From Carboxylicivirga fragile (GTDB lineage Bacteria; Bacteroidota; Bacteroidia; Bacteroidales; Marinilabiliaceae), in assembly GCA_025499625.1 (NCBI GenBank), contig JAFMVD010000032.1:1-64000 (forward strand): a stretch of 64,000 nt of DNA. The letters are read 5' to 3'. The position numbers and the translations under genes are program-made. A model generated the notes under the pieces. It was not told the origin of the DNA. It saw only the letters and a program-made list of their open reading frames with translations, and made no database searches. Shown one piece after another: positions 128-50,470 of the stretch. Each line of letters starts with the position of its first letter. Within the stretch, counting starts at the first letter, position 1.

Positions 128-198
128 GTCAACTTTGCACTTCGGACTACGGACTGTTGACTTCAGACTATTATACTAGGCACTGCGCACTAAGCACT
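128..198 (-). repeat. AGT-type heptad repeat array
   Basis: Read on the minus strand, the array is ten consecutive words each starting AGT (on the plus strand each ends in ACT). Nine are exactly 7 bp and one is 8 bp. The other four positions vary, for example AGTGCTT, AGTGCGC, AGTCTGA, AGTCCGT. The core AGTGCTTAGTGCGCAGTGC recurs with one change at 48026-48044. The rest of 1-256 holds no gene I can support; a weak hairpin lies at 4-28 and a near-consensus -7 box (TATCTTTA) at 232-239. Confidence 0.8.
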
Positions 199-31019: not shown

Positions 31020-31061
31020 GGAACGGTTCTTTATGTGTTTCTTACAATAGAGAACCGTTCC
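31020..31061. repeat. 11-bp perfect inverted repeat between mutL and rhomboid
   Basis: GGAACGGTTCT / AGAACCGTTCC (31020-31030 with 31051-31061), 20-nt loop. Probably the 3' end hairpin of mutL, although no T-run follows on the minus strand. Its arm shares AACGGTTC with the hemN terminator at 45411. Confidence 0.6.
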
Positions 31062-38829: not shown

Positions 38830-38835
38830 TGATTT

Positions 38836-38878
38836 AGATTATTAGAATTGAGACTAGTAGATTATAGACCAAGAATTC
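38836..38878 (+). repeat. AGA-type heptad repeats filling the regulator-kinase gap
   Basis: Six words starting AGA: AGATTATT, AGAATTG, AGACTAGT, AGATTAT, AGACCA, AGAATTC (6-8 bp). They run from just before the kinase start to the regulator stop codon, leaving no other sequence in the gap. Confidence 0.65.
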
Positions 38879-45475: not shown

Positions 45476-46858
45476 TTACACTGTCTTCGAATACTGCCCT
45501 TTGCCTTTCTTCAAAGCAGGATCAAAAGCCATGGCGATGTTACGTATTACGAATCGTCCCTGACCATGTACTGTGAAAATATCATTCTCAATTTGTAATA
45601 AGTCATCATCGATGAAAGATTGTACTTTGAGCACATCGTATTCAACGGCTTTATAGACCTCATCAAGCTCTACTGAAAAATCAGCTGCTATCTGCTTAAA
45701 GTCGGCATAATAATTACACATCAACTCATTAATAACCTGACGAACAATCTGCTCATTCTGGCTTAAGCGATAGCCACGCACAACAGCACGACCATCAGCC
45801 TCAACACGCTCCATGTAAGCTTTAATGGTTTTTTCGTTTTGACTATAGGCATTAAACAACTGAGAGATGCTTGAAGTACCAAAACCATAAACTTGCCCGG
45901 TAGTTTCGCGGGTACAGTAACCCTGGAAATTACGGTGTAGCTTCTTTTCTTCCAAAGCAATGGCAAACTCATCGTCGGGCTTCGAGAAATGATCCATACC
46001 AATAGGTACATAACCAGCCTCTACTGCCATATTATAGGCATCTTCCAACATCGTTATCTTCTCATCAGCTCCTGGCAAGCCATGTTTTTCGAGCGCTTTC
46101 TGCCTTGTCATCACACTTGGTACATGCGCATACGAAAAAGTTACCAAGCGATCTGGCTTAGCCTCCAAAGCTAGTGCTACAGAAGCTTTAAAACTCTCTT
46201 TTGTTTGATAAGGCAAACCATAAACCAAATCAAGGTTAATGCCTTTGAAACCAACCTTTCGTAGGTAAGTCACCATTTCGTTAACCGGCACTTTCGCAGG
46301 CTTACGATTGATGGCCTCCAATACTTCCTTTTTAAAATCCTGTATACCAAGGCTGATACGATTGAATCCCATATCGCGCAGCTGATCCACCATTTTGAAG
46401 TCGAGATAGGCAGGACTACACTCCATGGCCATCTCATAGTCATCGGCAAAATTAAAATTAGCCTTAATGGTATCCGTTACTTTGCGAATAAGATCGGCTG
46501 AAATAGCATTGGGCGTTCCACCGCCCCAATGCACCTGCGTCAGTTTACGCTCCTTCGATACATCTTTCGATACGAGCTTAATCTCCTTGATGAGTGTCTC
46601 AACGTACTTTTCAATTACATTATGCCCCATACCCGTATAGGTGGTGCATCCACAAAAAGTACATAACTGTGGACAAAATGGGATGTGCACATATACCGAT
46701 ACATTCTCGGGTTTTTCGTCATTTGATAGAATCACACTCTCCTTGTAATTCTCATTGCCATACGCCTCATGAAAAAATGTGGCAGGTGGATAACTGGTGT
46801 ATCGTGGACCTGCTATATTGTATTTTTCCAGTAGGTTTCTATCAAATTCTAGTTTCAT
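45476..46858 (-). CDS. hemN: Oxygen-independent coproporphyrinogen III dehydrogenase
   Basis: Radical SAM enzyme oxidising coproporphyrinogen III to protoporphyrinogen IX without oxygen. The 4Fe-4S motif is CPQLCTFC within HIPFCPQLCTFCGCTTY (about 58-74), with HWGGGTPN for SAM binding and the C-terminal HemN domain (FAIALEEKKLHRNFQGYCT). 460 residues matches true HemN rather than HemW. Last gene of the hem cluster, with its own terminator. The short heptads AGACCAG and AGATTAC touch its stop codon. Confidence 0.92.
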   Translation of the reverse strand: MKLEFDRNLLEKYNIAGPRYTSYPPATFFHEAYGNENYKESVILSNDEKPENVSVYVHIPFCPQLCTFCGCTTYTGMGHNVIEKYVETLIKEIKLVSKDVSKERKLTQVHWGGGTPNAISADLIRKVTDTIKANFNFADDYEMAMECSPAYLDFKMVDQLRDMGFNRISLGIQDFKKEVLEAINRKPAKVPVNEMVTYLRKVGFKGINLDLVYGLPYQTKESFKASVALALEAKPDRLVTFSYAHVPSVMTRQKALEKHGLPGADEKITMLEDAYNMAVEAGYVPIGMDHFSKPDDEFAIALEEKKLHRNFQGYCTRETTGQVYGFGTSSISQLFNAYSQNEKTIKAYMERVEADGRAVVRGYRLSQNEQIVRQVINELMCNYYADFKQIAADFSVELDEVYKAVEYDVLKVQSFIDDDLLQIENDIFTVHGQGRFVIRNIAMAFDPALKKGKGQYSKTV

Positions 46859-46864
46859 CTATAA

Positions 46865-46914
46865 AGTATCAAGTAGTGAGACCCCGATAATTATCGGGGG
46901 AGTATCAAGACCGT
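46865..46914 (+). repeat. AGTATCA heptads enclosing an 18-bp palindrome
   Basis: Words AGTATCA, AGTAGTG, AGACCCC (46865-46885) and AGTATCA, AGACCGT (46901-46914). Between them is the perfect palindrome CCCCGATAATTATCGGGG (46882-46899). It lies directly upstream of the hemN start. Confidence 0.7.
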
Positions 46915-46950
46915 TTTAAAGCATTAATACAAAAGCAATACGTAACAAAA

Positions 46951-46985
46951 AGCTAGCAGCTATTAGCCAATAGCGATCAGCTTTT
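46951..46985 (+). repeat. AGC-type heptad repeats after hemE
   Basis: Five exact 7-bp words AGCTAGC, AGCTATT, AGCCAAT, AGCGATC, AGCTTTT. They abut the hemE stop codon at 46985. Confidence 0.75.
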
Positions 46986-48019
46986 TATTTTCTTCCCCAA
47001 TCAACTGATTTTACCCAATCAATTACAAACTTCACGTTTTCAACCGGAAGGTCTGGTAAGATACCGTGGCCTAAATTGAAAATCCATTTTTGATTATCGC
47101 GACCAAATGGCAGGTAAGTCTTGTTTAGTTCTGCCTCAATGGTTGCCTGATCGGCATATAATAAACGTGGGTCAAGGTTTCCTTGTAAGCCAACTTCAGG
47201 ATCAACAATTGAACGTGCGTGTTTTAGCGACATGCGCCAATCGATACCAACAAAATCAGCCACTTCTTTATCAATGGCCTTGATGCCATTACCTAAATCC
47301 TTAGGGAAATAAATAGTAGGAACACCTTTCTCGCGCACTGCATTTAATATCTTCTTAGATGCCGGTAAAAACATTTCCAGATATAACTCTTCAGGTAATA
47401 AACCACCATAAGTTTCGAATAACTGAAAGGCTTCCACACCATGATCAGCTTGCTTCAAAGCGTATTCAATGGATACCTCTGTAAGAGCATCAATAATTTT
47501 CTGACTTGTCTTACGATCCTTATACAAAAACTCCGTTGCATTCTTAAAGGTTATATCACGCACATTATCGCGAAACATGAAACAGAAGGTGGTCAACAAT
47601 CCACCGCAGAAACCAATCAAAGGCTTACCTTCCGGACGTGTTTCAAGAATCTTATCAATGTTGGCATAAACATGATCCAACTTCGACATGTCCTTCACCA
47701 ATTGTTTGGCGGGATCGTCGTAGGTATGTAATGGCGCTCCAAAAACAGGACCAGCATCGGTAAACTTCAACGACATACCCAAGGCCTCTGGCACTACCAA
47801 TATATCAGAAAAAAGAATGGCTGCATCAACACCCAAATCGTAAATAGGCATGAGTGTTACCTCAGCAGCTAATTTAGGATCGTCCATCAATTCAGAGAAG
47901 GTGTATTTAGCCTTCAATGCTTGATAGTTGGGTAATACACGCCCTGCCTGACGCATAAACCAAACTGGTGGACGCTCCGTTTTTTTACCTTGTATTGTAT
48001 CTAGAAAAATGTTATTCAT
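46985..48019 (-). CDS. hemE: Uroporphyrinogen decarboxylase
   Basis: Decarboxylates the four acetates of uroporphyrinogen III to give coproporphyrinogen III. N-terminal FMRQAGRVLPNY (residues about 21-32) carries the substrate-binding Arg residues; the middle FSDILVVPEALGM supplies the catalytic Asp; GFCGGLLTTFCFM and LGHGILPDLPVENV follow. I start at Met 48019 (344 residues): the 17 extra upstream codons of the open frame would come from the repeat array and are not protein-like. It lies between hemL and hemN. Confidence 0.94.
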   Translation of the reverse strand: MNNIFLDTIQGKKTERPPVWFMRQAGRVLPNYQALKAKYTFSELMDDPKLAAEVTLMPIYDLGVDAAILFSDILVVPEALGMSLKFTDAGPVFGAPLHTYDDPAKQLVKDMSKLDHVYANIDKILETRPEGKPLIGFCGGLLTTFCFMFRDNVRDITFKNATEFLYKDRKTSQKIIDALTEVSIEYALKQADHGVEAFQLFETYGGLLPEELYLEMFLPASKKILNAVREKGVPTIYFPKDLGNGIKAIDKEVADFVGIDWRMSLKHARSIVDPEVGLQGNLDPRLLYADQATIEAELNKTYLPFGRDNQKWIFNLGHGILPDLPVENVKFVIDWVKSVDWGRK

Positions 48020-48096
48020 AGTCTTAGTGCTTGGTGCGCAGTGCACAGTGCAATATGCCACAATTGGCACAGTGCACTAGGTACCGGGCACTATTA
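48020..48096 (+). repeat. AGT-type heptad repeats filling the hemL-hemE gap
   Basis: The words AGTGCTT, GGTGCGC, AGTGCAC, AGTGCAA are followed by the dyad TGCCA-CAAT-TGGCA and then AGTGCAC, TAGGTAC, CGGGCAC. The array occupies the whole 77-bp gap between hemE start and hemL stop. It shares its core with the array at 128-198. Confidence 0.75.
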
Positions 48097-49389
48097 TTAT
48101 TTTGTTGCCTCTAAAGCTTTTCTGTTTCCTTTAATCAACTTCTCCAAATCCTCTTCGGTGTGAGCCATGGAGATGAATAAACATTCGAATTGCGATGGTG
48201 CAATGTATAAACCATTCTCAACAGCTGCCTTAAAGTAAGTAGCATACTTATCCGTATCTGAACTCATAGCTTCATCAAACGAACTTACTTTTGCCTCTTT
48301 TGTGAAGAAGGCTGTCATCATTGAACCAACTCGATTCAATACTACATTTAAACCAAGTTCTTTGGCATTTAGTTTAAACCCTGCTTCAACAAATGCCGCT
48401 TTCTTTTCTAGCTCTTCGTAGGCGTTTGGTGTCTCGTCCAGCTTTTTCAATGCTGTTAAACCAGCTGCCATTGCCAACGGATTTCCCGATAAGGTTCCTG
48501 CCTGATAAACCGGACCAAGAGGGGCCAGCATATCCATAATTTCAGCACTGCCGCCATAAGCACCAACAGGTAAGCCACCACCAATAATTTTACCAAGGGT
48601 GGTTAAATCAGGCATTACACCAAAATGTTCCTGAGCTCCACCTTTCGCCAAGCGGAAACCAGTAATTACCTCATCAAAAATTAGCAAGGCTCCGTTTTCT
48701 TTGGTGATATCGCGCAAGCCTTGTAAGAAACCTTCTGCTGGTGGCACAACACCCATATTTCCAGCAACTGGCTCAACAATAAGCGCAGCTATCTGATCTT
48801 TATTCTCAGCAAACAACTTACGAACTGAATCAAGATCATTGTAATCGGCCGTTAAAGTATCCTTTGCTGTACTCTTTGTTACACCTGGGCTATCAGGTAG
48901 ACCAAGCGTTATTGCGCCAGATCCCGCTTTAATTAAAAAGCTATCGCCATGCCCGTGATAACAACCTGCGAATTTAATAATCAACTCACGATTAGTATAG
49001 CCACGTGCCAGACGAACCGCACTCATGGTTGCTTCTGTACCTGAATTCACCATGCGTACTTTTTCGACAGAAGGCACCATCTTCACGATCTGCTCAGCCA
49101 TTTCTGTTTCAATCAAAGTTGGCGCGCCATAACTCGTACCATTGGCTGCTGCCTTGGCAACTGCTTCCAAAACATCATCGTGAGCATGCCCTAAAATGAG
49201 CGGCCCCCATGAGGCCACAAAGTCGGTATACTCATTATCATCGATATCCCAAATGGTTGTTCCCTTTGCTTTCTTAACGAAAATAGGATCAATGCCCACA
49301 CTTTTAAAGGCACGTACAGGTGAATTTACGCCTCCAGGAATGGCTTGCTGCGCTGCCTGAAAAGCTTGTTTGCTATTATTGTTATTCAT
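48097..49389 (-). CDS. hemL: Glutamate-1-semialdehyde 2,1-aminomutase
   Basis: PLP enzyme moving the amino group of glutamate-1-semialdehyde to give 5-aminolevulinate, second step of the C5 route. Schiff-base Lys267 lies in [28 protein letters not shown] near the N terminus, CYHGHGDS and FDEVITGFR (PLP pyridine Asp) are all present. 430 residues, of family length. Its product feeds hemB two genes away in the same operon. Confidence 0.96.
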
Positions 49390-49397
49390 GTTTCTTT

Positions 49398-49434
49398 AGA
49401 TAATAGATTATTAGACAAATAGAATCAAGATGAT
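49398..49434 (+). repeat. AGA-type heptad/octad repeats upstream of hemL
   Basis: AGATAAT, AGATTATT, AGACAAAT, AGAATCA, AGATGAT (7-8 bp), starting 9 bp before the hemL start codon. Confidence 0.6.
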
Positions 49435-49454
49435 TTGCATGATGTCTAAGAAAA

Positions 49455-49489
49455 GGCTATCAACTAGTAGCTAATAGCCAGGAGCTTAT
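49455..49489 (+). repeat. AGC-type heptad repeats after hemB
   Basis: Words GGCTATC, AACTAGT, AGCTAAT, AGCCAGG, AGCTTAT, exact 7-bp phase, ending at the base before the hemB stop codon. The minus strand also reads as AGC/GGC heptads. Confidence 0.7.
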
Positions 49490-50470
49490 TTATTTTTGTC
49501 CATTTAAAATATCCGCTGCATCAAGTGCATGATAGGTAATGATAATATCGGCACCAGCACGTTTTATCGATAGTAGCACTTCCATCATCACACGTTGTTC
49601 ATCAATCCAGTCCTTTTCACCAGCAGCTTTCACCATACTAAACTCACCACTAACATTGTAAGCAGCAGTAGGCATCTCGAACTCACTCTTGGTACGATAG
49701 ATAATATCCAGATAACTCAAGGCTGGTTTCACCATAACGATGTCGGCTCCCTCTTCAATATCAGAGGCAATCTCGCGCATGGCTTCGTCAGAATTAGCAG
49801 GATTCATTTGGTAGGTACTTCTATCGCCAAATTGTGGTGCACTCTCAGCTGCTTCGCGGAATGGGCCATAAAAACCAGATGCATACTTAGCCGCATACGA
49901 CATGATTGGAATCTTTTCGAATCCAGCTAAATCCAATGCTTCACGAATGCGCAACACACGACCGTCCATCATATCACTTGGTGCAATGATATCGGCACCA
50001 GCTTCTGCTAATGAAACAGACTGATCGGCCAATGTTTTTAAAGTAGAATCGTTATCCACATCACCATCGATAATGGTTCCGCAATGACCGTGCGTAGTGT
50101 ACTCACAATTACAAACGTCTGCCACAATCATGATATCTTCAATCTCAGCCTTAATGGCACGAATGGCTTTCTGAACGATTCCATCTGCTTGACAAGCTAC
50201 GTGACCATGCTCATCTTTCGATTCAGGAATACCAAAAAGTAATACACTTTTAACGCCCTTTGAAACGGCCAATTTACATGCTTCAACCAATACATCAACC
50301 GACATTTGGTAATTACCCGGCATTGAACTAATCGGTTTTTTCACTTTAGTTCCTGGGCATACAAACAATGGATACACTAGGTCTTCAACACGTAGATGCG
50401 TTTCGGTAACCATGTTACGCAATACTTTATTATATCTTAATCTTCTTAGGCGAGTTTCTGGGAAAGCCAT
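49490..50470 (-). CDS. hemB: Delta-aminolevulinic acid dehydratase (porphobilinogen synthase)
   Basis: Condenses two 5-aminolevulinates into porphobilinogen. The zinc cysteines are Cys120, Cys122 and Cys130 ([16 protein letters not shown]), so this is the zinc-dependent class. Active-site lysines lie in [14 protein letters not shown] (about 195) and [10 protein letters not shown] (about 248). 326 residues, full length. It follows hemD after 17 bp. The 3' side is closed by heptad repeats rather than a terminator. Confidence 0.96.

Follow-up and report, generated by a model that had tools for sequence, protein, structure and literature searches.

Period-7 word arrays between the heme biosynthesis genes of Carboxylicivirga fragile as possible modular intercistronic stem-loops

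The short gaps between heme biosynthesis genes of Carboxylicivirga fragile (Bacteroidota; Bacteroidales; Marinilabiliaceae) hold rows of imperfect 7-nt words, which raises the question of what maintains the rhythm where the spelling of the words varies. The window analyzed here is the 64,000-nt stretch at positions 1 to 64,000 of contig JAFMVD010000032.1 (assembly GCA_025499625.1), in which the gene order at the arrays, all on the minus strand, is hemA, hemC, a gene without a match at the cut-off used, hemB, hemL, hemE and hemN; hemA and hemC pass their NCBIfam cut-offs like the four genes listed in Table 1. A search of named genomes found Carboxylicivirga records with hemL 87-92% identical to that of the window. 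With the start of hemE taken as the ATG at 48019 (the mechanical open reading frame reaches a GTG at 48070), the three gaps are hemE-hemN at 46859-46984 (126 nt), hemL-hemE at 48020-48096 and hemB-hemL at 49390-49489.

Table 1. Genes and period-7 features of the window, with the evidence for each.
Feature	Position	Strand	Basis
CGGACTN words passing into GCACTNN words, upstream of the gene at 257, single-armed	132..198	+	132-169 by lag-7 score; 170-198 by eye
hemN	45476..46858	-	NCBIfam TIGR00538 cut-off passed
TTGATAC/GTATCAA-family words upstream of hemN, interrupted by a palindrome at 46883-46898	46864..46912	-	AG at 46865, 46872, 46879 and at 46901, 46908
AGC-word array (GCT words on the coding strand), five words, foldable, abutting the hemE stop, T5 next on the coding strand	46951..46985	-	phase and fold
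hemE	46985..48019	-	NCBIfam TIGR01464 cut-off passed
GTGC/GCAC heptad hairpin spanning the hemL-hemE gap, stop to start	48020..48096	-	fold z -2.9; alignment with five relatives; covariance-model match 48019-48096 (training sequence of the model)
hemL	48097..49389	-	NCBIfam TIGR00713 cut-off passed
AGA/TCT-type words upstream of hemL, loose phase (7, 8, 8, 7); TCTAN words on the coding strand at the start codon	49398..49449	-	spacing; coding-strand fold
GGCT/AGCT array abutting the hemB stop; 11-pair hairpin, then TTTTC on the coding strand	49455..49489	-	fold and array scan
hemB (porphobilinogen synthase)	49490..50470	-	NCBIfam NF006762 cut-off passed

A sequence-only reading of the window had proposed that these gaps are built almost wholly of words that begin with AG and keep a 7-bp phase, in arrays that end exactly at the stop codons of hemE, hemL and hemB. 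We indeed confirmed a strict phase for the five AGC words that touch the hemE stop codon, with AG at 46951, 46958, 46965, 46972 and 46979, and found the AG-AG distance of 7 in excess both in the hemE-hemN gap (seven times against a shuffled mean of 1.46, a count reached in 0 of 2,000 shuffles) and in the hemB-hemL gap (four times against 1.31; P 0.03), so that the pattern is not reproduced by the shuffled control that the reading itself had named. Ending at stop codons stood for the arrays at hemE and hemB. Other parts of the description were too generous: AGC begins three of the five supposedly "mostly AGC" words at 49455-49489, the AGA words have a loose rather than strict phase, and "almost wholly" overstates the case for the hemE-hemN gap, where a separate palindrome is found as well. 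The AG phase claimed for the hemL-hemE gap, with spacings of 6, 14, 7, 24 and 8, is not significant (P 0.33); this gap nonetheless folds well and, in the alignment with relatives, emerges as the clearest heptad element. By the strict definition used below (at least four words at a fixed period), arrays are present in two of the three hem gaps for which they had been claimed. The reading was right that the phase is kept without the sequence, and it had passed over the inverted arms, the existence of several word families and a TTAATGA family that breaks the AG rule in 11 of 14 hemE-hemN gaps.

Some further observations were made in the window and its genome. The palindrome within the TTGATAC words, CCCGATAATTATCGGG, gives eight strand hits, i.e., four sites, in 1.04 Mb of this genome and may be a small mobile palindrome that has inserted among the words. 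Between two minus-strand genes at 38830-38877 there are loosely spaced AG words (8, 7, 8, 7 by eye) that are absent from the list of strict arrays. An inverted repeat at 31020-31061 has the arms GGAACGGTTC and GAACCGTTCC, the former of which occurs 10 times in the 1.04 Mb sampled and also in strong hairpins of other gaps. Several gaps of the genome (e.g., 17821-17940 of L049 and 5801-5896 of L067) hold recurrent hairpins with GGATGNCATC in their arms, and GGATG.CATC has 17 hits in 1.04 Mb.

The 7-nt rhythm is real well beyond the hem operon. Our sample comprised 1,017 gaps from five Carboxylicivirga genomes (1.02 Mb of C. fragile, 400 kb each of G013 and G012, 340 kb of G003 and 60 kb of G004), with genes called by the longest open frame and with 12 C. 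fragile contigs below 15 kb (in most counts) and gaps below 30 or above 400 nt left out. In the 707 gaps flanked by same-direction genes we counted 29 AG arrays at period 7 (shuffles 2.1), compared to 0-4 at periods 5, 6, 8, 9 and 10, and 37 CT arrays (shuffles 2.3), compared to 0-4 at the same other periods. Together, 48 of these gaps carry a period-7 array, compared to 4.65 and at most 8 in 20 shuffles. Divergent gaps have strict arrays in 7 of 169 cases (shuffles 0.9) and convergent gaps in 5 of 141 (0.75), and the difference in frequency between same-direction and other gaps has a Fisher P of 0.082. The pooled lag-7 ratio is 1.58 in same-direction gaps (95% interval 1.40-1.75), 1.03 in divergent (0.83-1.26) and 1.19 in convergent ones (0.95-1.44). 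Counts per genome (19 of 309 gaps in C. fragile, two of the 19 being hem gaps, 15 of 118 in G003, 8 of 133 in G013, 5 of 124 in G012 and 1 of 23 in G004) place the arrays in a minority of gaps and mark the hem operon as a rich spot; the pattern is present elsewhere in the genome, where its absence would have spoken against the original claim, and in relatives. In 318 kb of the C. fragile genome there are 10 runs of five AG at a fixed spacing of 7, compared to 0-3 for every other period between 4 and 13. The highest lag-7 ratio belongs to GC (3.54 and 3.0) rather than AG because of the AGCT words. Period-7 identity pooled over all intergenic bases is weak (z 1.7 at lag 7).

The words in the hem gaps and the array list are of AGCT, GTGC, TTGATAC, CGGACT and TTAATGA types. 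Tandem Repeats Finder at score 30 reported a single hem array, with 2.7 copies at 48034, and the words vary rather than being near-identical units; the window has no match at Rfam gathering thresholds, and none of the 48 array-bearing gaps listed holds an exact TAACTGA array. REP and REPIN elements, which are associated with a transposase, have a conserved sequence that the elements here lack: a 61-nt query from the window gave its own match and 15 weaker ones (best E 2e-6), without a conserved repeat sequence of that kind. Conservation is uneven over the seven word positions, with a variance of 0.061 against 0.047 across 23 arrays (0 of 200 shuffles as high; 5 of the 23 reach P<0.05 singly).

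Many arrays are hairpin arms, and on the coding strand AG words tend to lie on the side of the stop codon and CT words toward the next start. When 416 same-direction gaps of 40-150 nt were divided in halves, the first halves held 105 AG pairs at a distance of 7 nt (shuffles 49.9, sd 6.3, maximum of 200 shuffles 71) and the second halves 100 CT pairs at that distance (43.7, sd 6.2, maximum of 200 shuffles 62). The same half-gap excess is seen near hemL in 55 gaps of ten 5-21-kb named or metagenome-assembled (MAG) Carboxylicivirga records, which overlap the hem loci of our 14-genome set, at 38 against 11.9 for AG and 48 against 10.2 for CT, all 50 shuffles being lower (maxima 19 and 20). Among arrays without AGCT words, 11 of 15 AG arrays begin within 6 nt of a stop codon (two of the 11 in one gap), and 15 of 24 CT arrays end within 15 nt of a start codon. 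Where both arms pass a relaxed test, AG precedes CT by 6 to 0 with one overlap (seven cases of the sample) and by 9 to 0 in 42 hem gaps, two sets that share the hem gaps of five genomes. This order alone cannot tell which strand matters, since the reverse complement also reads AG-then-CT, and many arrays are single-armed. No signal was found for a stop codon standing in phase with its array, as an AG lies 7 nt beyond TAG in 15 of 177 stops compared to 7-18 at other distances from 2 to 17.

In 14 genomes of the genus, the fold z is -2.5 or lower for every one of the 14 hemL-hemE gaps, and among all 42 hem gaps it is -2 or lower for 28. Foldability does not by itself make a gap special, because ordinary hairpins are common in this genome: the median z over its gaps of 40-250 nt is -1.67 for same-direction (261), -0.44 for divergent (69) and -3.95 for convergent gaps (55). 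The GTGC/GCAC element of the hemL-hemE gap has a regular architecture, which in an alignment of six species consists of stems of 3, 5, 5 and 7 pairs with 2x2 loops every 7 nt. Its core cells are paired in 112 of 120 cases (102 Watson-Crick and 10 G-U) and its spacer cells in 10 of 36 (6 Watson-Crick and 4 G-U). The fraction of cells paired (93.3%) exceeds that of shuffled versions (86.1%; 0 of 500 as high), and the covariation score of 0.270 exceeds both shuffled (0.134; 0 of 500) and all slid versions, a control that is weakened by the relatedness of the rows; five pairs have changes on both sides. As judged from the alignments, covariation is clear in this one element only. The GTATC element aligns with 11 pairs, no compensatory change and an unfavorable covariation term, and the TTAATGA words yield no consensus structure over 11 species, with 25 pairs, four of them with compensatory change, in a subset of six.

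A covariance model built on the GTGC element has matches in 12 of the 14 genus genomes, six of which supplied training sequences. The hem site accounts for 10 of the 30 matched loci that we extracted; the remaining 20 hits fall at 16 distinct places, of which 13 lie between same-direction genes, a share not above the 70% background of such gaps. Beyond the genus, the model gave a match with E of 0.01 or less in 14 of 98 Bacteroidota genomes, where about one would be expected by chance; the E-values are rough, and the matches were taken on score. Some results speak against the structural interpretation. Recurrence of mismatches at 7-nt steps across the stems is weak (107 against 91 in heptad gaps), and the comparison of G-U with A-C mismatches, a test for selection on RNA, gives 54 to 56 in heptad gaps and hence no support for stems kept for their shape. 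The same ratio is 27 to 47 in hem gaps, i.e., in the wrong direction though from rows that are not independent, 323 to 255 in all same-direction gaps (P 0.005), 43 to 51 in convergent and 83 to 85 in divergent gaps.

Between species, different word families stand in one and the same gap. By eye, the hemL-hemE gap holds GTATC words in G001, G002, G003, G005, G008 and G012, GTGC words in G000, G004, G006, G007, G009, G010 and G013, and both in succession in G011. In a tree of hemL and hemE, the sister pairs G005/G009 (support 100), G003/G010 (100) and G001/G013 (88) differ in the family at this site, so that either both families may have been present early, with repeated loss of one, or they may replace each other. 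The hemE-hemN gap has the TTAATGA words, which lack AG, in 11 of 14 species, AGCT or GGCT words in G000 and G006, and neither clearly in G007. In two pairs of orthologs the lengths are exactly one 7-nt word apart: the hemB-hemL gap with its AGCT array measures 127 nt in C. mesophila (G006) and 120 nt in C. sediminis (G007), and G002 and G013 differ by one word in a GTGC element elsewhere. Length differences in two further ortholog groups are not multiples of 7, and no conspicuous excess of length-7 indels was seen in 20-kb alignments of ten genomes, in which species are 73-79% identical except for one pair at 93.7% with 11 indels, one of them of 7 nt. We note that the hemL-hemE gap of C. mesophila and C. 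sediminis has an insert of about 110 nt between the GTGC arms that folds strongly itself, much as a palindromic element inserted into the loop would.

The reading that we tentatively prefer, at a probability of about 0.4, is that the arrays are modular intercistronic stem-loops that are edited in whole words and kept for their shape rather than their spelling. Each arm would be a row of 7-nt words, and each word, on the model of the best element, would contribute some 5 nt that pair with the opposite arm and 2 that stay unpaired, giving a ladder in which short stems alternate with 2x2 internal loops. An AG-type arm would run, on the coding strand, from the stop codon of one gene and a CT-type arm to near the start of the next, an arrangement by which the fold would draw stop and start together and separate the cistrons in the mRNA. 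Slippage or hairpin-templated copying may lengthen, shorten or re-register the arms by whole words; the 7-nt phase would survive because changes come in whole-word steps, and with the ladder rather than the spelling being kept, word families could replace one another between species. We infer from these patterns that the RNA hairpin forms in the cell, that selection keeps it and that it may act in processing, stability or translational coupling of the neighboring cistrons. The sequence-only reading had offered repeated slippage or insertion, a structural role and DNA bending side by side. The one-word length differences lend some support to steps of 7 nt, and a structural role fits better than slippage alone because, in one element, stem positions pair and stay and spacer positions vary. 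Bending is not indicated and was set aside, as 7 bp is not a helical repeat.

It is the G-U result, together with the commonness of ordinary hairpins, that holds the structural reading to this level and makes it quite possible, though not probable, that the arrays are functionless mutational products. Slippage with a preferred 7-nt step and template switching at quasi-palindromes would then generate inverted heptad arrays wherever the sequence is free, and would pile them up in same-direction gaps because divergent gaps hold promoters. Such an origin would agree with the one-word length differences, the even balance of G-U and A-C mismatches, the different families at one site in sister species and the arrays in 12 of 310 gaps that are not same-direction, and heptamers have been reported to be the most frequent type of long simple repeat for most genomes, for which a polymerase footprint was proposed (Mrazek 2007, as told in PMC4679880). 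It sits poorly with the sharp contrast in pairing between core and spacer in the GTGC element, with the uneven variation over the seven word positions and with the weaker signal of convergent gaps, which are likewise free of promoters; slippage offers no reason for AG arms at stops and CT arms at starts, and the ten-genome alignments show no conspicuous length-7 indels.

Readings in which the words serve another purpose fare worse. Intrinsic terminators or attenuators built of heptads that cut transcription part-way between the hem genes would suit the hemB-hemL array, by scan the sole hem gap with a hairpin followed by a T run of this kind, and the T5 at which the hemE array ends; as a general account they are improbable, given that a run of at least four T stands in the examined tail of 6 of 20 AGCT-type arrays in same-direction gaps, that GTGC and GTATC elements have no T run and that terminator-like sites at 46500-50000 number 5 against 2.9 (sd 2.0) in shuffled sequence. 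Rows of protein binding sites whose cores (GTGC, TTGATAC, AGCT) are read at 7-bp spacing, as proposed for TAACTGA repeats, would explain why cores are kept and spacers vary, and the CT arrays near start codons match the position reported for those repeats (PMC4679880). This is very improbable, with AG and CT arms that are ordered and inverted and with cores that differ between sister species in the same gap, so that each family would need its own protein. Scarcely credible, finally, is that a reverse transcriptase or a telomerase-like enzyme extends the 3' ends of breaks with AG-type words, in which case two joined ends would give an AG-then-CT palindrome and one end a single arm. AG does precede CT wherever both are found, single-armed arrays occur, and two related genera carry CCCTAAA words, which equal the plant telomere unit, but the ladder covaries in one element.

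How far the arrays extend was followed in gaps beside hemL. At the family level (32 gaps), CT pairs at lag 7 number 52 against 11.1, AG pairs 19 against 9.9 and AG pairs at lag 8 22 against 9.8; at the order level (15 gaps), the counts at lag 7 are 8 against 3.1 for CT and 2 against 2.1 for AG, and 24 gaps at the phylum level gave no lag-7 signal. A half-gap control of 97 gaps in 61 non-Bacteroidota records, grouped by record title, gave AG 12 against 7.8 (sd 2.4) and CT 13 against 7.5 (sd 2.4), not exceeding the highest of 50 shuffles (13); two of its records, L242 and L243, may be mislabeled (hemL 56 and 62% identical to that of the window), and L239 is in no group. The two related genera with CCCTAAA arrays (L209 and L217) have them close to genes that adjoin hemL. 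A comparable inverted array of 8-nt words (TGATTAAG / CTTAATAA) was noticed by eye in L199, and the step may not be 7 in every lineage.

The heptanucleotide STRR of cyanobacteria (Calothrix; mentioned in PMC4692102) resemble our arrays as intergenic heptanucleotide repeats, but have near-exact words and, to our knowledge, no inverted arms. The sequence-only claim that no named element follows such a rule was half right: intergenic heptamer repeats are a known kind already in print (PMC4679880, PMC4692102, PMC2700814), and the folded, word-swapping form here is a variant of them. Among the closest are the TAACTGA direct repeats of Beggiatoaceae, Cyanobacteria and five Bacteroidetes, which are likewise intergenic, made of 7-nt units that contain CT and mostly situated just 5' of start codons, where many of our CT arrays end, and which in some Bacteroidetes are mixed with related heptamers; they differ, in the sections drawn on, in that a single exact word is repeated directly (with one inverted set among 170), a hairpin is not predicted, the stop codon has no second arm and the family does not change at one site (MacGregor 2015, PMC4679880). 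The heptamers GGGAATC of Xanthomonas and GGGGA(C/T)T of Nostoc are also intergenic, lie mostly between same-direction genes and nearer the upstream ORF and include some inverted rearrangements, but consist of one G-rich word with G-quadruplex potential and, in the part of the source drawn on, no stem ladder (PMC4692102). Elements of Geobacter metallireducens (four GGACCGG or five MTYCTGA) are dispersed rows of degenerate heptamers, with class 3 sites drawn as two facing strands, and differ in a fixed consensus interpreted as regulator binding sites (PMC2700814). REP and REPIN share with our elements that they are dispersed intergenic palindromes (PMC3116915, PMC3733652, PMC12306157). For inverted, word-swapping heptad arrays we found no description in searches of an open-access library, with subscription journals mostly outside this scope and absence accordingly unproven.

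It is conceivable, if on the unlikely side, that the arrays represent a shape-coded intercistronic class in Bacteroidota, a ladder in 7-nt steps from stop to start that would be read by its shape by the ribosome, a nuclease or an RNA-binding protein and whose words are interchangeable. If the ladder is the feature that is kept, it would be a regulatory or structural element invisible to sequence searches and would account for the recurrence, in bacteria, of intergenic heptamer repeats whose spellings are unrelated. It would also tie a mutational habit, change in 7-nt steps, to a use, the spacing between the cistrons of an operon, and this is directly testable in a marine bacterium that can be cultured.
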